Assembly: GCA_011620585.1 (NCBI GenBank)
Contig: WOYV01000086.1
Span: 7,959 to 71,958 of the forward strand
DNA: 64,000 bases
Reading direction: 5' to 3'
Source of the DNA: Draconibacterium sp.
Lineage (GTDB): Bacteria; Bacteroidota; Bacteroidia; Bacteroidales; Prolixibacteraceae
The notes below the pieces were generated by a model. The model ran no database searches, was not told the DNA's origin, and worked only from the letters and a program-made list of their open reading frames with translations. Numbering within the stretch: the stretch's first letter is position 1; each line of letters starts with the position of its first letter. A program made the translations under genes and the position numbers. Shown here in pieces: positions 2,538-57,162 of this stretch.

Positions 2538-3557
2538 ATGTTAGATAAAATCAAAGCATTACAAGAGGAATTAGAAAAAGTAGTGGCTTCGAGCAAAGAA
2601 GAAGTCGAAGAACTGCGTATTAAATATATCAGTAAAAAAGGCCAGATCAGCCAGTTATTCAACGACTTTAAAAATGTTCCACCTGAACAAAAAAAAGAAG
2701 TTGGACAGGCCATTAATATTTTAAAAGAGTTTGCTCTCGAAAAAATCAACTCTCTGAAGGATGGTTTCGAAAATAGCAACGATGAAAATTCAGGCCTGGA
2801 TCTTACTATGCCCGGCGAATCGATGAAACTGGGCACACGGCATCCGCTTTCCCTGGTAAAAAACGAGATCACTGGTATTTTTGCGCGTCTTGGTTTTACG
2901 GTTGCCGAAGGCCCTGAAATAGAAGACGACTGGCATGTTTTTTCAGCATTAAACTTTCCGCCGGAACACCCTGCCCGCGACATGCAGGATACTTTTTTTA
3001 TTGAAAAAGATCCGGATGTCTTGCTCCGTACACACACCTCAAGTGTTCAAATCAGGGTGATGGAACGCACGCAACCACCCATCCGGGCCATTTTCCCGGG
3101 CCGAGTGTTTCGCAACGAGGCTATTTCTGCCCGCTCGCATTGTATTTTTCATCAGATTGAAGGATTGTACGTTGACGAAAATGTTTCGTTTGCCGATTTG
3201 AAACAAACGCTCCTACAGTTTGCGAAAGAACTTTTTGGCGAAGGAACTAAAATCAGGCTGCGTCCTTCTTATTTCCCCTTTACCGAACCCAGTGCCGAAA
3301 TGGACGTAAGCTGTTCGATATGCGGCGGCGAAGGCTGTAACGTTTGTAAATACACTGGCTGGCTCGAAATTCTGGGCTGTGGAATGGTTGATCCGAACGT
3401 TTTGGAACTTTGTAATATCGACAGTAGAAAATACACCGGATTTGCATTTGGAATGGGTATCGAACGGATAACCATGCTGCGATACGGAATAAAAGATATC
3501 CGCCATTTTTTCGAGAACGATGTGCGTTTCCTCAAACAATTTGAGTCGGCCACCTAA
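2538..3557 (+). CDS. pheS: Phenylalanine--tRNA ligase alpha subunit
   Basis: Catalytic subunit of the cytoplasmic alpha2beta2 enzyme that charges tRNA-Phe. The 339-residue protein has the family length. The N-terminal coiled-coil tRNA-binding arm (about 1-90) is followed by the class II aminoacyl-tRNA synthetase core. Visible motifs are motif 1 around RHPLSLVKNEI, motif 2 FRNEAISARSHCIFHQIEG and motif 3 GFAFGMGIERITML. The cysteine cluster near residues 255-270 (CSICGGEGCNVC) is typical of bacterial PheS. The gene is transcribed alone from a -7 box at 2508; pheT is not adjacent, so the two subunits are encoded apart. Start at 2538 fits the conserved N-terminus. Confidence 0.97.
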   Translation: MLDKIKALQEELEKVVASSKEEVEELRIKYISKKGQISQLFNDFKNVPPEQKKEVGQAINILKEFALEKINSLKDGFENSNDENSGLDLTMPGESMKLGTRHPLSLVKNEITGIFARLGFTVAEGPEIEDDWHVFSALNFPPEHPARDMQDTFFIEKDPDVLLRTHTSSVQIRVMERTQPPIRAIFPGRVFRNEAISARSHCIFHQIEGLYVDENVSFADLKQTLLQFAKELFGEGTKIRLRPSYFPFTEPSAEMDVSCSICGGEGCNVCKYTGWLEILGCGMVDPNVLELCNIDSRKYTGFAFGMGIERITMLRYGIKDIRHFFENDVRFLKQFESAT

Positions 3558-50531: not shown

Positions 50532-51131
50532 TTAGAAATAACGACGCACCTTTTTTGTGTATTCGAGGTATTCTCGCTGGTATTTTTCGGTAAGAAAACG
50601 CTCTTCTTTCAGAATAAAAAAATGAGTGCCCACGATGGCTGCCAGCGTAAAAGCGACGTGAAAAGCCGAAGGTAGAATCAGTGCAACTCCCAGAAAATAG
50701 AAATCGAGCGAAAGAAAAAACGGATTTCGTGAACGCGAAAAAATACCAGTTGTTACCAGTAGCCCCTGGTTTTGCTTATCGAGCCCAAAACGAAGCGAGG
50801 TTCCAAAATCGTTAAGTGTAATCGAGAAAGAGATTAATCCGAGCAATAAAAATATAGCGCCGGTGATTGGAAGCGCTTTGGTTTCGACGAGAAAATCAGA
50901 TAAAAACGCCGGAAGCAGCACAAAAGACAAATGAAAAGCTGGCCGAATGATCTCGAATAGCCAAATCAAAAAAACCAGGAAGAAAACCGGGAAAAGAAGG
51001 TATTTTGCCTTGTTCTTTTCCCCGTTTCCTGAACCTGGTTGAATTCCTTTTTTTCGGAGAGCTATGATCTTTGCGATCAAAACCACCACCAGCAAAAGGA
51101 AAGAATAAAAAGGTATAACTTCTAAACTCAT
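50532..51131 (-). CDS. ICMT/PEMT-like membrane methyltransferase
   Basis: A 199-residue integral membrane protein with about five helices. The C-terminal half has the isoprenylcysteine carboxyl methyltransferase/phospholipid methyltransferase signature GLLVTTGIFSRSRNPFFLSL and the final EERFLTEKYQREYLEYTKKV. Bacterial members methylate small lipids or unknown membrane substrates using SAM. No neighbour suggests a role. Confidence 0.82.
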   Translation of the reverse strand: MSLEVIPFYSFLLLVVVLIAKIIALRKKGIQPGSGNGEKNKAKYLLFPVFFLVFLIWLFEIIRPAFHLSFVLLPAFLSDFLVETKALPITGAIFLLLGLISFSITLNDFGTSLRFGLDKQNQGLLVTTGIFSRSRNPFFLSLDFYFLGVALILPSAFHVAFTLAAIVGTHFFILKEERFLTEKYQREYLEYTKKVRRYF

Positions 51132-51170: not shown

Positions 51171-52658
51171 TTATTGAATTATAAACTTCAATCCCAACGA
51201 AACTATATTAGCTTTCAAACCGTCGGTTCTTGCATAATGGCTGAATTTCAGATTGGCATTTTTAAGTTCAAAGCGGTTGATGTGGAAATCGTTGAAGATA
51301 TCGTTGTAATTCAGCGCCACGCTGTATTGATTGCTGTTGAACTTTGCCAAATCGGGGTCCGAAGTATAAAACTTCTCGGTTGAAAGATGGGTTTCGTATG
51401 GCGCATAATATTTTACCGGATTTTGTGTGTAATACCTGTACGACGGGGTTATTGAAAATTTCTGATTAAACCTTATCGGAAGATCCACATTTACCGTGTG
51501 CGCTTTTAAACCCCAGTCGTCGGTGTAGTAACGGTAGTAGGTTCGCAATACAAAAGTTTCGTTGATGTAGTAATTCAGCCTGGCCCCAATTGGTATTTTA
51601 AACCGGGTCGAAGGCAATCGTTCGATGTCGTCGGCGAGCTGGTAAACTCCCCTGTTTTGACGTGTAGTATATACCGGAATGTATGCCGCATCGCCAATAT
51701 AGTAATTCGCTTTATCGGCAAAATAAATCCGGTGGTAGGGCGTCGAAAGCAACCCATCCTGTTTAACCAGATCGAAAAAGAGCGCCACCTGTAGCCGTTT
51801 GCTCAAAATCTGAGATAGGAAAAACGACGCTGAATAGGAATTCCGGCCACGATTAGTGATGGCATTAAAACCTGATGGGAAATAGCTTGACGAAACGGTT
51901 CCATTCTGGTTGATAACATCTACGTTTGCAAAATATCCCTGATTCAAAAAATTGCTTCCGTACAAATTGTATTCATTCAATTCGGTCGGGTAGATAGGCC
52001 GCCATTTATCGAGGTAAACCGCTCCTTTCAAACCCACTTCGGTATTTTTATCGTTGAACAAGTGCGAAATGTTTCCTCCAAAACCAAAGGAGGTGTAGTC
52101 GTATTCATTCGAAAGCGACACATTGGTTCCCCAGATAAAATTACGGTCGTCGGAGCTGTGGCTGTAATCCACGTGTCCCGAAGCCAACGCATCGCTTCGG
52201 GAGGCACCGGAAGATGCCAGCCAGGGCGTTCCCGGTTGTGCATCGGACGAATGTTCATGATCGTCATCATCTTCGCCACGTTTGCCAATTATGGTTGTCG
52301 CCGCACTTTTTGTAGAAATGTTTGACGAAGAGGCTGCGGTGTTTCCGTTAAACGGATTGATGTTGCTTGATGATGCCGAAGTGTACGCCGAAATCCCAAC
52401 GTCGATGGTCAATACATCGTCGTCGTTTAAAGGCAGGCTAACGACGATAGTTGGTGTTACATCGGTAAGTTCTTCGGTTCCCACTCCGCCGCCGACCGCC
52501 GAATTATCGCCATCCTGCTTGTATATGCTCATCAAAAAATCGACTTCGGTATTTTCGAGCACCCTTTTCCTGTAAACTCTTGTGGAATCCTGCACTTGTG
52601 CATAACCCACCACCCGGCCTGCCACTAAAAGCAGACCTATCAACATTGTTCTTTTCAT
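51171..52658 (-). CDS. DUF3570 outer-membrane barrel with SSGAS motif
   Basis: A 495-residue secreted protein from MKRTMLIGLLLVAGRVVGYA. After the signal, an N-terminal region (about 20-175) contains an acidic and histidine-rich patch (EDDDDHEH, 129-136) and the sequence WLASSGASRSD, SSGAS at residues 149-153 (52200-52214). The remainder alternates as amphipathic beta strands and is likely a beta-barrel ending in a terminal strand. The family has no known function. It closes a thioredoxin-ApbE-DUF4266-DUF3570 operon. ApbE flavinylates S/T in SGA(S/T) motifs, so SSGAS is a candidate FMN site (inference). Confidence 0.85.
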   Translation of the reverse strand: MKRTMLIGLLLVAGRVVGYAQVQDSTRVYRKRVLENTEVDFLMSIYKQDGDNSAVGGGVGTEELTDVTPTIVVSLPLNDDDVLTIDVGISAYTSASSSNINPFNGNTAASSSNISTKSAATTIIGKRGEDDDDHEHSSDAQPGTPWLASSGASRSDALASGHVDYSHSSDDRNFIWGTNVSLSNEYDYTSFGFGGNISHLFNDKNTEVGLKGAVYLDKWRPIYPTELNEYNLYGSNFLNQGYFANVDVINQNGTVSSSYFPSGFNAITNRGRNSYSASFFLSQILSKRLQVALFFDLVKQDGLLSTPYHRIYFADKANYYIGDAAYIPVYTTRQNRGVYQLADDIERLPSTRFKIPIGARLNYYINETFVLRTYYRYYTDDWGLKAHTVNVDLPIRFNQKFSITPSYRYYTQNPVKYYAPYETHLSTEKFYTSDPDLAKFNSNQYSVALNYNDIFNDFHINRFELKNANLKFSHYARTDGLKANIVSLGLKFIIQ

Positions 52659-52668
52659 TACACTCTTT

Positions 52669-52881
52669 TTAGTTGCAACCACATCCACCACCTGTTTTTC
52701 CGCCATTTGCCCCGGCGGCCCCTTCGCGGTAAACCTGGAAATTGGTTTCGAAACGTTCGTTGGTGTGTGCGGCTAATTTCATGTCGGGGTCGTTAATGTA
52801 AACTTTCTCGTATTCTTTTACAGTGGCACACGATGTAAGTAGCAGGATCATAAAAAGCCCTAAAAGCAATTTTTGTTTCAT
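52669..52881 (-). CDS. DUF4266 small lipoprotein with CGCN tail
   Basis: A 70-residue lipoprotein. The signal ends in the lipobox LTSC (Cys18). The short polar body (DPDMKLAAHTNERFETNFQV) leads to a Gly-rich end, GGGCGCN at residues 64-70, with two cysteines (67 and 69). I recall this C-terminal CGCN as a hallmark of the DUF4266 family. It overlaps the ApbE gene by four bases and is followed by DUF3570, a pairing I recall from other Gram-negative genomes. The paired cysteines near the end may form a disulphide or hold a cofactor; nothing in the sequence proves it. Confidence 0.82.
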   Translation of the reverse strand: MKQKLLLGLFMILLLTSCATVKEYEKVYINDPDMKLAAHTNERFETNFQVYREGAAGANGGKTGGGCGCN

Positions 52882-53861
52882 TTTGTTGAATTCAATTTTA
52901 TATTTTCCGATTCGTATATTTTTCCATTGTCGTCGACAATAATACATTCTATTCCGGGGAGCTGATTTACAAAATCGAGACCGGTTTCCAAGCCCATTAC
53001 AAAAATTGAGGTTGCCAGGGCGTCTGCCAGTTCGGCCCGAGGGGCAAAAATAGTAGCGCTCGTTAACCCGCTTACGGGCCAACCCGTTCGCGGGTCGATG
53101 ATGTGGGTGTACCGTTTCCCGTTGAACTCGACAAACTTTTCGTAATTACCAGATGTTACTACCGCGTTGTTGTCGAGCGGAAACCACGAGAATACCTTGT
53201 CTTTGTTCAGTGGATTGGTGATGCCAACCATCCAGGGCGATCCGTCGGGTTGGGTTCCCCAGGTAGTGAGGTCGCCCGACGCATTCATAATCCCGGCTTT
53301 AACTCCTTTCGAAATAAGCAGTTGCTTGGCCTTGTCGGCTGCGTAACCTTTTCCGATAGCGCCAAACCCGATGCGCATTCCTTTCTTTTTAAGAAATACG
53401 CTTTGATTTTCAGGATCGAGTACAATGTTATTGTATCCTACCTTTTCGACCGAGAGTAAGACTTCGTCTTCGCTTGGCAGTCGTTTCATCGATCCGTCGT
53501 ATTTCCATATCCTGTCCATCGATGCATAAGAGATATCGAAGGCGCCATCAGTTAGTTCCGAAATTTTTATGGCTCGCCCAATCAGGTCGAATAGTTCCTT
53601 GTCCACTTTTACAGGCCTTATTCCTGCAAAGCGGATTACTTCGGATGTTTCGGAAAGCGTATCCCACGAAGAAATCATTTTTTCGATCCTGCTGATTTCG
53701 TCCACGGCTAAATCGATGTACTCATCGGCCTGGGCCTGATTAGCAGCTACCACAGTTATATCGAAGCGGCTTCCCATCAGTTTTAAGGTGCGGGTGTACT
53801 TTTCCTGTGCCGAAAGCAGAACAGGAGCCAGACAAAGTATAAATATGAAAATGGTTTTCAA
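52878..53861 (-). CDS. apbE: ApbE: FAD:protein FMN transferase
   Basis: A 327-residue periplasmic flavin transferase with a signal peptide (IFILCLAPVLLSAQ). ApbE attaches FMN from FAD to a Thr or Ser of target proteins. Visible are TLKLMGSRFDIT, the FAD-binding GFGAIGKGYAADKAKQLL, GIMNASGDLTTWG, HIIDPRTGWPV and the metal-binding ADALATSIFVMG. The partner genes are a thioredoxin upstream and DUF4266 and DUF3570 downstream, so its substrate is probably encoded in the operon. No Nqr, Rnf or FMN-binding-domain gene is in the window. Confidence 0.94.
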   Translation of the reverse strand: MKTIFIFILCLAPVLLSAQEKYTRTLKLMGSRFDITVVAANQAQADEYIDLAVDEISRIEKMISSWDTLSETSEVIRFAGIRPVKVDKELFDLIGRAIKISELTDGAFDISYASMDRIWKYDGSMKRLPSEDEVLLSVEKVGYNNIVLDPENQSVFLKKKGMRIGFGAIGKGYAADKAKQLLISKGVKAGIMNASGDLTTWGTQPDGSPWMVGITNPLNKDKVFSWFPLDNNAVVTSGNYEKFVEFNGKRYTHIIDPRTGWPVSGLTSATIFAPRAELADALATSIFVMGLETGLDFVNQLPGIECIIVDDNGKIYESENIKLNSTK

Positions 53862-53867
53862 ACCGGC

Positions 53868-54329
53868 TTATTTTTCGAATGAATGCAACATCGCTATATA
53901 CTCGTTGGGACTGACATGTTTATATCCGGTGGTCCCCAGCACTTTTCCATTCTTATCGAGAACTGCCACCATCGGGAAAAGACCCTGTTTGTTGTAGACT
54001 TCTGCCAGGTGTTCATTGGCTTCCTGTTGTTCTTTTGAAAGTCGGTTGTTTTTCTTTTTTGGAAAATCGGCCCGAAGAAGAACAAAATGATTGTTAGACT
54101 CTTTGATAAATTCAGGTGATTCCCATATTTCCTTTTCGAGTTTCATACAAGGAATGCACCAGTCGGAACCGGAGAAAACCAACACAATGTTTCTTCCTTC
54201 GTCAGAGGCTTTTTGTTTGGCCACGTCAAAATTGGTTTCCCAGTTTTGTGCGTTTAATGAAATCACTACCAGCAGTGCCGATGCGATCAAAATAATCTTT
54301 TTCACCTTTTTTAATTTGAAATTTAACAT
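53868..54329 (-). CDS. Secreted thioredoxin-like protein (CIPC)
   Basis: A 153-residue protein with a hydrophobic N-terminus ending near VISLNAQN, so likely periplasmic. A thioredoxin fold carries the active site WCIPCMKLEKEIW and the cis-Pro region LFPMVAVLDKNGK. It may reduce or keep reduced the cysteine pairs of the operon's partner proteins (for example the DUF4266 CGC tail). It is the first gene of the ApbE operon; the start could also be the downstream GTG (VKKIILI). Confidence 0.87.
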   Translation of the reverse strand: MLNFKLKKVKKIILIASALLVVISLNAQNWETNFDVAKQKASDEGRNIVLVFSGSDWCIPCMKLEKEIWESPEFIKESNNHFVLLRADFPKKKNNRLSKEQQEANEHLAEVYNKQGLFPMVAVLDKNGKVLGTTGYKHVSPNEYIAMLHSFEK

Positions 54330-54507: not shown

Positions 54508-54533
54508 ATAAAACCCCGGCCAATGGCCAGGGC
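54508..54533 (-). terminator. Terminator after the barrel gene
   Basis: On the minus strand GCCC-TGGCC-ATT-GGCC-GGGG forms a strong GC stem, and a TTTTATTTTTT run follows. It lies about 30 bases past the stop at 54563. Confidence 0.8.
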
Positions 54534-54562: not shown

Positions 54563-55498
54563 TTAAATATTCGGGAAAGAAATTCCAATTAGCAAAGGGT
54601 GTACATCGGGGCCTCTGCCATCTCTAAACAGCGATGTCATACTGTAGTTGGCAAACACACAGAAGTCGCCAAACCCGATTCGCCCGGTTAATTCGTATTT
54701 CCACTGGTTGATATTAAATCCGCTTTTTGATTTTTCCTTGTCGCCTTTGTAATATTTGTACTTGGTGTGCGAACCCAGGTATAAACTACCGATCACTCCC
54801 CCGGCAAGGTACAAGCGCGAGCTTCCCATACGTAGCGGGGTTTTTACTTCGAGCATCAATGGAGCAGTAAGGTAATTTACATGCAGTTTCGATTTTTTAA
54901 TGCCATGGCCATCAGGATCATCCGGTAATTGTACTGGAATGGTAATTGCCGGAGTCCTGGTATTTACCACCGTGATCTGGTCGTTAAAAGTGTAGTCGTT
55001 GAAACTAAAACCAAGCCCGGTGACTACGCCAAAGGTTTTGCGTTCGTTTTTAAAGGCAAACTCCATGATATTCAGGTTCCAGCTAAGTGATTTGCCGGGG
55101 CTCAAATCCATAAAATCGCCAAATTCATCGTACTGTCCGTTATAAATTGAGTAGTCGGAATTGGTCATAACGTTTAAGCCAACTTCCAAACCAGCCCAGT
55201 GAGGGTTGAACCTGCCCGACCATTTCGGGCGGTCGTAATCTTTATCAACTCTTACATAAGTTCCGTTGTGTCCGTCAATCACTTTAAAAGTTCTACGGCC
55301 AATACGAATGTGGGTGGTATCTCCCCAATCGTCGGTAACTACTTCTACTCCGTTTCCGACCGAAACTTCAACTCGATCGTTGCCTTCTACAACCGTTACA
55401 ATATTTTTCTTTCCAAGAGTTACTTTGGTAGAATCGGTTTGTGCCCACGAATTTGTGGCGAGCACAGTGCATAAAATAAGGACCATCAATTGTTTCAT
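54563..55498 (-). CDS. Outer-membrane beta-barrel protein, ECF operon
   Basis: A 311-residue protein with a signal peptide (LMVLILCTVLATNSWAQ). After a short beta-rich region (about 25-85) the sequence is an alternating barrel of PorT/outer-membrane-barrel type, with repeated aromatic strands (HWAGLEVGLNVMTNS, FGVVTGLGFSFNDYTFND, SRLYLAGGVIGSLYLGS) and a final strand HPLLIGISFPNI. It lies just downstream of the anti-sigma-like gene and ends at a terminator. It may be the sensed or regulated target of the sigma factor. Confidence 0.82.
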   Translation of the reverse strand: MKQLMVLILCTVLATNSWAQTDSTKVTLGKKNIVTVVEGNDRVEVSVGNGVEVVTDDWGDTTHIRIGRRTFKVIDGHNGTYVRVDKDYDRPKWSGRFNPHWAGLEVGLNVMTNSDYSIYNGQYDEFGDFMDLSPGKSLSWNLNIMEFAFKNERKTFGVVTGLGFSFNDYTFNDQITVVNTRTPAITIPVQLPDDPDGHGIKKSKLHVNYLTAPLMLEVKTPLRMGSSRLYLAGGVIGSLYLGSHTKYKYYKGDKEKSKSGFNINQWKYELTGRIGFGDFCVFANYSMTSLFRDGRGPDVHPLLIGISFPNI

Positions 55499-55561
55499 CT
55501 TGTTCTGGTTTTAATGTTCTGAAGTTGTGACGGGCAAGGTATTTAAAAAGTTACAGCAATA

Positions 55562-55593
55562 AAAAAAGAGATACTTTTCGGCATCTCTTTTTT
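55562..55593. terminator. Terminator between anti-sigma and barrel genes
   Basis: AAAAAAGAGAT pairs with ATCTCTTTTTT around a ten-base loop, with T runs for the minus strand. This splits the 110-base gap, so the barrel gene may have its own promoter, or read-through may occur. Confidence 0.7.
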
Positions 55594-55609
55594 GGGTATG
55601 ATATAAAAA

Positions 55610-56647
55610 TTATTCTTCGTCGGCAGGGTGAGACGAAGGGATGGAAAAAGCAAGTAAACGCGAGTCGTAATTGTATTCGGTAACTTTTCCATCTTCATCT
55701 GTTTTATAGGTAAAACGTTCGTTCGACAGGCTTGTAACCAGATTTAGGCCGGCACGCGTAATTTTCTGAAGACTTACTTTTCCACGAAGATTATCGGTAA
55801 GTAAACGTTTGTCATCAATTTCATATTCGGGATAAACCAGTGTCATAACACCGAGTTCAGCACGCGGAGCCTGCACATTGATCGAAGCGGTAAGTGTATT
55901 TAAGGTTTTGGGAACCTCAAGCGGGATGCGTTCCAGTGCAAGGAATTCCGGAACAGTTCTGTCTTTTGTTTCTTCACGCAGGCTTTTGGTTTCTTTTTTT
56001 GTTTCGGTTTTCTTTTTAATAACCTGGGGTTTGGGTTTTTCAACCACTGTTTTTGTTTTGGTTTGAACCGGAATCACAGGCTTCTCAATAATTTCTTTTG
56101 GAGTTTCTGTTTTTTTCTCAACCCGGGCAACCTGATTTTGAAGATCAGGAATTTTGTTGTTCGGATTGAAAAGACTAAAAATTGCCAAAGCCAGGATTAA
56201 AACGGCGGCTACACGACCTGCCCATAACAAAACAATTTTTCTTCCCGATTTTTTGTAAAGTCGGTTTTTATGTGCAAAACGGATGTTTTCGTCGGCGAGC
56301 AAGATGGTTTTTTCAAAGAGTTGCTTGTCTTTTTGTTTTTCGGGATGCGCTGCCAGGTATTTTTCGAAAACGGCTGTTTCTTCCTCGTCAATATCTCCTT
56401 CGATTTCAGCAATGGCGGCTTTGTTAAATTCGGGTTCGTGATCGTATTTTGCTTTGTACAGTTTATTTTTCCCCGAAAATGTATGATTCTCAGGAACGGC
56501 GCTTACCGATTCAAAAAGTTTGAGTTCGGCTTTTAAATCGGGATTTTCCTGCAAAAATTCGATAAAACGATCCACCAGTTTTTCGTCGAGATTACCTTCG
56601 AGGTAATCGACAAACCAGGTTTCGTAATTTTCTCTTGTAATATTCAT
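55610..56647 (-). CDS. Anti-sigma-like membrane protein with tandem N-terminal repeats
   Basis: A 345-residue one-helix protein (helix about 138-160, LWAGRVAAVLILALAIFSLF). The cytoplasmic part holds two similar units of about 50 residues, roughly 14-65 (DYLEGNLDEKLVDRFIEFLQ) and 79-131 (AEIEGDIDEEETAVFEKYLA), each ending in KNKLYK or KNRLYK. The usual His/Cys zinc site of anti-sigma factors is missing. After the helix lies a Lys/Pro/Thr-rich extended region (about 170-240) and a beta-rich periplasmic end. It follows the ECF sigma gene by 17 bases and probably binds it; this assignment rests on context. Confidence 0.75.
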   Translation of the reverse strand: MNITRENYETWFVDYLEGNLDEKLVDRFIEFLQENPDLKAELKLFESVSAVPENHTFSGKNKLYKAKYDHEPEFNKAAIAEIEGDIDEEETAVFEKYLAAHPEKQKDKQLFEKTILLADENIRFAHKNRLYKKSGRKIVLLWAGRVAAVLILALAIFSLFNPNNKIPDLQNQVARVEKKTETPKEIIEKPVIPVQTKTKTVVEKPKPQVIKKKTETKKETKSLREETKDRTVPEFLALERIPLEVPKTLNTLTASINVQAPRAELGVMTLVYPEYEIDDKRLLTDNLRGKVSLQKITRAGLNLVTSLSNERFTYKTDEDGKVTEYNYDSRLLAFSIPSSHPADEE

Positions 56648-56664
56648 TATCAACTCCTTTCGGT

Positions 56665-57150
56665 TTATGCCACAGCTTCAATGCTTCCGATGTACTTTTT
56701 CAAAAATACCCTTGCCCGGTAAATGTACACTTTTACCTGCGAGGTGCTCAGGTTGGTGAGTTCGCCAATTTCCTGATAGTTATAGCCTTCGTAATCGCGC
56801 AGTAATACCACCATGCGTTGCACCTGTGGCAGCCGATCGACGGCTTCTTTCAATATTTCACTCAAATCAGAATAATTGTTTTCATGGCCGTCTTCCCGCA
56901 GGCTGATGTCTTCGGCATACACGGCATTTTTTTCTTTTCGGATGCGGTCGATCATGGTGTGATATGCAGTTGTAAAAAGATACGACTTCACCTTTTCAGC
57001 ATTTACGTTGTCTACATTCTTCCACAATTTCTCGTAGCTATCCTGCACAATGTCTTCTGCCTTGTGTGTGTCTTTAATGCTTTTTAAAACAAACCGGTAC
57101 AATCGGTCCGAATATTCATCAACAGCCTGGTTGTATTCGTTTACGGTCAT
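56665..57150 (-). CDS. ECF-type RNA polymerase sigma factor
   Basis: A 161-residue sigma-70 family factor (MTVNEYNQAVDEYSDRLYRF) with region 2 (about 25-90, AEDIVQDSYEKLWKNVDNV and YLFTTAYHTMIDRIRKEK) and region 4 (about 115-160, HTH LPQVQRMVVLLRDYEGYNYQ and LSTSQVKVYIYRAR). Such factors are held by a neighbouring anti-sigma protein, here the downstream gene at 55610. No FecR/FecA partners are adjacent. The ATG at 57150 is used; a frame extension to 57162 adds four residues. It starts a likely three-gene operon with the barrel at 54563. Confidence 0.92.
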   Translation of the reverse strand: MTVNEYNQAVDEYSDRLYRFVLKSIKDTHKAEDIVQDSYEKLWKNVDNVNAEKVKSYLFTTAYHTMIDRIRKEKNAVYAEDISLREDGHENNYSDLSEILKEAVDRLPQVQRMVVLLRDYEGYNYQEIGELTNLSTSQVKVYIYRARVFLKKYIGSIEAVA

Positions 57151-57162
57151 TCTCTTAAACAC

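Follow-up and report, generated by a model that had tools for sequence, protein, structure and literature searches.

A thioredoxin, ApbE, DUF4266 and DUF3570 operon of Draconibacterium sp. with likely flavinylation sites on a predicted outer-membrane barrel

A stretch of 64,000 nucleotides from Draconibacterium sp. (contig WOYV01000086.1, positions 7,959 to 71,958; the whole stretch analysed is called the window below) carries on its minus strand, from 54329 to 51171, four genes in the order thioredoxin, ApbE, DUF4266 and DUF3570. The first (53868..54329) encodes a DsbH-like periplasmic thioredoxin-like protein with a signal peptide assigned by eye and CIPC at residues 58-61 (Thioredoxin_7, PF13899, E 7.6e-14). 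It is followed by ApbE, a flavin adenine dinucleotide (FAD):protein flavin mononucleotide (FMN) transferase with a TTG start (52878..53861; PF02424, E 3e-82), and by a DUF4266 lipoprotein (52669..52881; PF14086, E 5e-20) with a lipobox cysteine, Cys18, and a C-terminal GCGCN in which the CxC falls at residues 67-69. The last gene (51171..52658) encodes DUF3570, a predicted outer-membrane beta-barrel that is likely flavinylated (PF12094, E 1.2e-36). The mechanical open reading frame for DUF3570 has 511 amino acids from 52706 and overlaps DUF4266; we counted residues from the ATG at 52658, which gives 495 amino acids. An earlier note, made from the sequence alone, had described a four-gene operon on one strand at these positions, and the Pfam matches bear this out. 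It had also remarked that the operon holds no classical FMN_bind substrate, which is correct: no gene of the operon matches FMN_bind (PF04205), DUF3570 has no hit to it, and the two matches in the genome lie on other contigs, C44 and C68.

The available passages of Méheust et al. 2021 (PMC8238504) describe a system in which the same four families stand side by side and the CxC of DUF4266 is shared, and it is near certain that the window operon is a Bacteroidota-type member of this published ApbE/DUF3570/DUF4266/thioredoxin flavinylation system, and an ordinary one. According to these passages, DUF3570 proteins adjoining apbE bear two conserved [S/T]GA[S/T] motifs, the DUF3570 of Chlorobium luteolum was flavinylated when co-expressed with its own ApbE, and both of its serines had to be replaced to abolish the modification; the function of the gene set was stated to be uncertain. 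The core idea of the earlier note, that DUF3570 is a substrate of ApbE, is therefore correct but already published, having been shown by others for the C. luteolum homologue. The window differs from the published system in that its first site reads TSAS, its middle motif is a putatively decayed one and DsbD lies outside the cluster: Pfam found no DsbD among the eight neighbouring window genes scanned, and DsbD_TM matches, including a protein of 668 amino acids, are on other contigs of the genome. The FMN_bind proteins that ApbE flavinylates (NqrC, RnfG and others) depend on the same transferase and the same kind of short linear motif; unlike them, the window's DUF3570 has no FMN_bind domain and would carry its flavins on a predicted beta-barrel.

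Two candidate sites, both on the minus strand, bracket one loop of DUF3570, L2, between strands 3 and 4 of the predicted barrel. Candidate site 1, YTSAS (residues 92-96; 52371..52385), with Ser96 as the putative acceptor, lies where strand 3 passes into L2, and candidate site 2, SSGAS (residues 149-153; 52200..52214), with Ser153 as the putative acceptor, lies at the end of the loop. Between them, TAAS (residues 107-110; 52329..52340, minus strand) occupies a part of the loop in which relatives often have [ST]GAS. The earlier note had placed the flavin on SSGAS at residues 149-153, nucleotides 52214-52200, and this motif stands as a candidate; YTSAS at residues 92-96 had been missed, so that at least two sites have to be considered, and the first of them is [ST]SAS rather than SGAS.

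The homologous loop was compared in 82 sequences (81 from related loci plus the window), of which 61 were picked as rows of an alignment, A2. The loop averages 2.67 [ST][GS]A[ST] motifs as against 0.16 when each of the 82 loops is shuffled 100 times, and the motif is therefore not a matter of chance. Site 1 reads [ST]SAS in every one of the 82 loops, that of the window included, Ser standing where the motif has Gly, and site 2 is [ST]GAS in 81 of 82, the exception (L139) having SGPS. Of the window's own sites, one is canonical (SGAS, 150-153) and the other has Gly replaced by Ser (TSAS, 93-96). Ser96 and Ser153 (S76 and S133 of the mature protein) are each invariant in 61 of 61 A2 rows. A middle [ST]GAS occurs in the core of the loop between both sites in 54 of the 82 sequences; the window is among the other 28, and L075, L076 and L077, at the top of the match list, have SGAS or TGAS where the window has TAAS. 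As far as sequence comparison goes, the window's middle site is one that has decayed to TAAS. Among 151 non-redundant DUF3570 proteins, from which the window's copies had been taken out, residues 56-230 contain the relaxed motif ([ST][GS]A[ST]) twice or more in 143 proteins, one in 5 and none in 3, while the strict form ([ST]GA[ST]) is present at least twice in 90 and once in 38. The earlier note had stated that related proteins carry SGAS or SGAT, and the invariance of the acceptor serine, together with the presence of ApbE at every related locus described below, agrees with conservation of the site.

The window's DUF3570 is very likely flavinylated. It is very improbable that the protein goes unmodified in this organism and that its motif is a relic, ApbE serving FMN_bind proteins elsewhere. 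The two FMN_bind matches on other contigs would fit such a relic, as would the departure of site 1 and the middle site from the consensus; against it, the genome has two further ApbE genes besides the operon copy, site 2 is kept in all but one of the 82 loops, and a homologue was flavinylated in the laboratory, as the available part of PMC8238504 reports.

AlphaFold2 modelled the window's DUF3570 as a barrel with a predicted local distance difference test (pLDDT) score of 86.3 and a predicted template modelling (pTM) score of 0.82 from a 61-row alignment, and a short relative (L148) also gave a barrel (pLDDT 87.7, pTM 0.82; 44 rows, in an alignment that overlaps the window's). Both models have 16 antiparallel strands, counted by reading, and termini on one side; the signal peptide was assigned by eye. 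Foldseek matched the outer-membrane channels FadL, OccK and OmpG (best E 1.2e-10), which share the general barrel fold with DUF3570, with 5-10% identity and query TM scores of 0.28-0.41 in the 50 rows listed. On these models and matches, DUF3570 is likely a 16-strand outer-membrane barrel, the prediction agreeing with what the earlier note had supposed.

In the window's model, loops on the motif-bearing face measure 2-63 residues and turns on the opposite face 4-10 residues; across the 82 loops, the measured stretch of L2 ranges from 32 to 82 residues. Motifs were mapped onto the strands in 155 rows (82 + 73, with the window counted in both). The strict motif occurred 229 times: 213 times in L2, 11 times at the end of strand 1, once in strand 2, twice in L4 and twice in L5, with none of the 229 in the opposite-face turns T1-T7. 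The relaxed motif was likewise absent from T1-T7 in the 155 rows and occurred once in the N-terminal stretch. Ten sequences account for the 11 motifs at the end of strand 1; they appear to be proteins with an insertion after strand 1, i.e., in L1, from a family, f18, which we take for green sulfur bacteria. The termini of outer-membrane barrels are periplasmic, and the motif-bearing face would therefore be extracellular; in the models, the flavin motifs are probably on the outer face.

This placement seems not to have been worked out before. The main text of PMC8238504, as searched, uses neither “barrel” nor “porin”, does not place DUF3570 in the outer membrane, and mentions an outer membrane once, in connection with TonB receptors. 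The available passages of PMC11334425 (2024) and of the review PMC12052999 (2025) contain no structural treatment of DUF3570, and titles and abstract openings in the open-licence literature held nothing on point for flavinylation together with a beta-barrel or porin.

The model is also compatible with an L2 that folds back like the constriction loop of a porin, in which case flavins inside the channel would reduce a passing metal or solute with electrons from the periplasm. Invariant strand residues concentrate in the half of the barrel beside L2 (32 of 102 vs. 10 of 107, p 1e-4, with no correction for shared descent), which also counts in favour of flavins on the outer face; the invariant pore-facing residues there, many of them aromatic or charged, speak for such a channel. 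So do the loops L5 and L7, which are better conserved than L2 and L4, and the metal transporters near some loci (CusA/CzcA pumps, VIT1 in L119 and CDF in L075). The variable length of L2 and its often acidic composition point rather to an exposed loop than to a fixed plug, and we consider flavins within the pore somewhat unlikely.

The window's ApbE aligns with 7esa (phmmer E 4.8e-50), and its Ser237, His253 and Asp280 match, by eye on that alignment, the Ser-His-Asp triad that the review passages (PMC12052999) give for FmnB and V. cholerae ApbE. In 133 aligned distinct DUF4266 sequences, C67-G68-C69 is conserved at 100% and the lipobox Cys18 at 98%. The thioredoxin scores 91.6 bits against the NCBIfam DsbH model, under its cut-off of 190. 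Among the related loci of named public genomes, the best 80 of 580 confirmed, ApbE, DUF4266 and DUF3570 are found together in 80 of 80 and the thioredoxin in 78, in line with the coupling to thioredoxin that the earlier note had proposed; the two loci without it, L075 and L095, begin at a contig end, and WCxxC is present in the thioredoxin of 77 of the 80 related hits.

Of 296 genomes sampled from the phylum, 86 have DUF3570 and 83 have DUF4266, all within those 86, and ApbE was present in 192, namely in 83 of the 86 genomes with DUF3570 vs. 109 of the 210 without it; these co-occurrence figures are inflated by shared descent, above all by the large family f18. Of the 40 loci L035-L074, four have no ApbE nearby (L046, L060, L061 and L072), leaving 36 with the gene, and one has no DUF4266 nearby (L046), leaving 39. 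L060 (4497-5636) and L061 have a DUF3570 relative with a TGAT motif and a DUF4266 ending in CGCAK, with no apbE in the locus of ~10 kb; in both genomes apbE is located elsewhere. A full DsbD lies inside the cluster in two f18 loci, L069 and L070, and a redoxin-type thioredoxin precedes DUF4266 in L069 and L058; the donor side is therefore conserved in kind, not in family. Gene numbers vary in f18 as well: L071 (2257-10534) has four DUF3570 genes and two DUF4266 genes in one stretch, and in several f18 genomes the DUF3570 matches are numerous, as many as 9, with split matches among them.

In the mechanism that we propose, ApbE would modify Ser153, and probably Ser96, on the still-unfolded DUF3570 chain in the periplasm. 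Flavinylation before membrane insertion fits the short peptide motif that is all ApbE requires (review passages, PMC12052999) and the published behaviour of DUF3570, which went largely to the pellet and was purified in denatured form (available passages, PMC8238504). Once folded as a 16-strand outer-membrane barrel, the chain would carry its flavins at the mouth, in loop L2 on the extracellular side. Electrons would come from a DsbD-type protein, whose gene lies elsewhere in the genome, and would travel over the thioredoxin and then the CxC at the C-terminus of the DUF4266 lipoprotein, a partner of the barrel, to the FMN. From there they would reach an acceptor on the cell surface or beyond it, which may be an oxidised metal. 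Taken as a whole, periplasmic flavinylation of a barrel with outer-face flavins that are fed with electrons by thiols is fairly probable; the order of the electron carriers and the acceptor are what we infer. MtrCAB-type outer-membrane electron conduits combine a barrel, a periplasmic donor and a surface acceptor site. The window system would work like these but with FMN as its cofactor, and Pfam matched none of the scanned cluster genes to a cytochrome family.

The direction of flow is not fixed by the genes alone, and the same parts would serve if the flavins oxidised the thiols of DUF4266 or thioredoxin and passed electrons to oxygen or quinone, the module then making disulfides or oxidising metal. 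Such a reversal appears improbable. DsbD, the supplier of reductant, is in the cluster at L069 and L070, and the available passages of PMC8238504 count it in 285 flavinylation clusters, of which 227 list DUF3570 as well, with 316 clusters having no DsbD colocalised, as in the window; in addition, the thioredoxin resembles the disulfide reductase DsbH, if below the cut-off.

Several observations weigh against the proposed mechanism. Site 1 has no Gly in its motif and no Asp three residues ahead of it. The review describes this Asp as strictly conserved, although in its available passages Asp to Ala has only a minor effect; a Gly to Ala mutant retains ~50% flavinylation (PMC12052999). On these data, which do not extend to a change of Gly to Ser, the deviating sequences of site 1 and of the middle site may be tolerated. 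In family f11, the motifs of L042, L043 and L050 are eroded (ASAS, SSPS or less) while ApbE and DUF4266 still adjoin, which makes these loci a natural test of how strict the motif is. The two barrel halves did not differ in mean conservation (p 0.16); the tests of invariant and of pore-facing residues, which did show a difference, came after this failed one, and neither corrects for shared descent. L2 is partly below a pLDDT of 50 and could fold into the pore, and the outer-face assignment rests on the textbook rule for barrel termini. Among the 86 genomes with DUF3570, three are without ApbE and three without DUF4266, and the DUF3570 gene of L046 has neither nearby.

Loop L2 also contains an acidic and histidine-rich run, EDDDDHEH (residues 129-136; 52251..52274, minus strand), mostly where the pLDDT is below 50, which the earlier note had suggested as a metal-binding patch. 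Runs of at least five D, E or H letters were present in 36 of 82 loops and varied in length and position between them, and the patch was rejected as a conserved metal site. The run accompanies the middle motif (32 of 54 loops with the motif vs. 4 of 28 without it, p 1e-4, uncorrected for descent).

Genes linked to metals lie near some of the 120 related loci (80 + 40), which seem to hold some genomes twice (L067/L117 and L045/L138). Many Flavobacterium loci have, 3' of DUF3570, genes for a response regulator, a kinase and a resistance-nodulation-division (RND) pump. Counting every type of RND pump, 34 of the 120 loci have a match, and 18 of the 25 of those with named records are Flavobacterium; shared descent may explain most of these associations. 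Of five RND pumps scanned, four were of the CusA/CzcA type (L104, L149, L140 and L119), and that of L077, one of the window's closest relatives among the matches listed, was of the multidrug type. For the one regulator (L084) and the one kinase (L102) scanned, the best matches were heavy-metal sensor models, below the cut-off. The Cyclobacterium locus L149 has a CusA/CzcA pump and its adaptor 5' of the thioredoxin, on the same strand and with a 31-bp gap, while in the Sinomicrobium locus L140 a regulator, a kinase and a CusA/CzcA pump are divergent. L140 also encodes, at 2825-3553 between the pump and the two-component system, a rubrerythrin-family protein with an N-terminal extension. VIT1, found here in L119, is reported in 25 published clusters in the available part of PMC8238504. 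The metal link is a lead, not a demonstration.

Downstream of the operon, a PEMT/ICMT-like membrane methyltransferase gene (50532..51131, minus strand; Pfam PEMT E 6.4e-10) begins 39 bp 3' of DUF3570 and may be a fifth member; a similar gene lies 3' of DUF3570 in one of the 120 related loci (L075). Just upstream, a terminator-like hairpin (54513..54533, minus strand; a stem of 9 pairs, 7 of them G-C, and a T-rich tail) sits between the operon and an upstream barrel gene and may mark the upstream edge of the operon; across the region such hairpins number 9 vs. 8.2 in shuffles, i.e., they show no excess. Beyond the hairpin, at 54563-57162 on the same strand, lie genes for an extracytoplasmic function (ECF) sigma factor, a protein of 347 amino acids without a Pfam match and an OMP_b-brl_2 barrel protein. 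These were rejected as members of the system, as the hairpin intervenes; the barrel gene and the 347-residue protein have no match in the 120 related loci, and sigma-factor matches occur in 12 of them.

To the published system, this analysis adds the topology of the sites, a first site with Ser for Gly, an optional third site and the close pairing with DUF4266; the Ser-for-Gly site may already show in the logo of PMC8238504 (Fig. 3C). As a tentative possibility, DUF3570 and DUF4266 might form a haem-free outer-membrane conduit, in which a lipoprotein placed within or beneath the barrel would take electrons from the thioredoxin by its CxC tail and hand them on to two to four covalent FMNs on extracellular loops. 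The number of flavins would be tuned by lineage through gain and loss of motifs in L1 and L2, the acidic loop would gather metal cations, and the whole would act as a cell-surface metal or quinone reductase in Bacteroidota and Chlorobi. With flavins on the outer face, a constant thiol lipoprotein partner and a motif number that varies between lineages, the open question of function becomes directly testable. If true, the system would give Bacteroidota an exit for electrons without a multihaem cytochrome.

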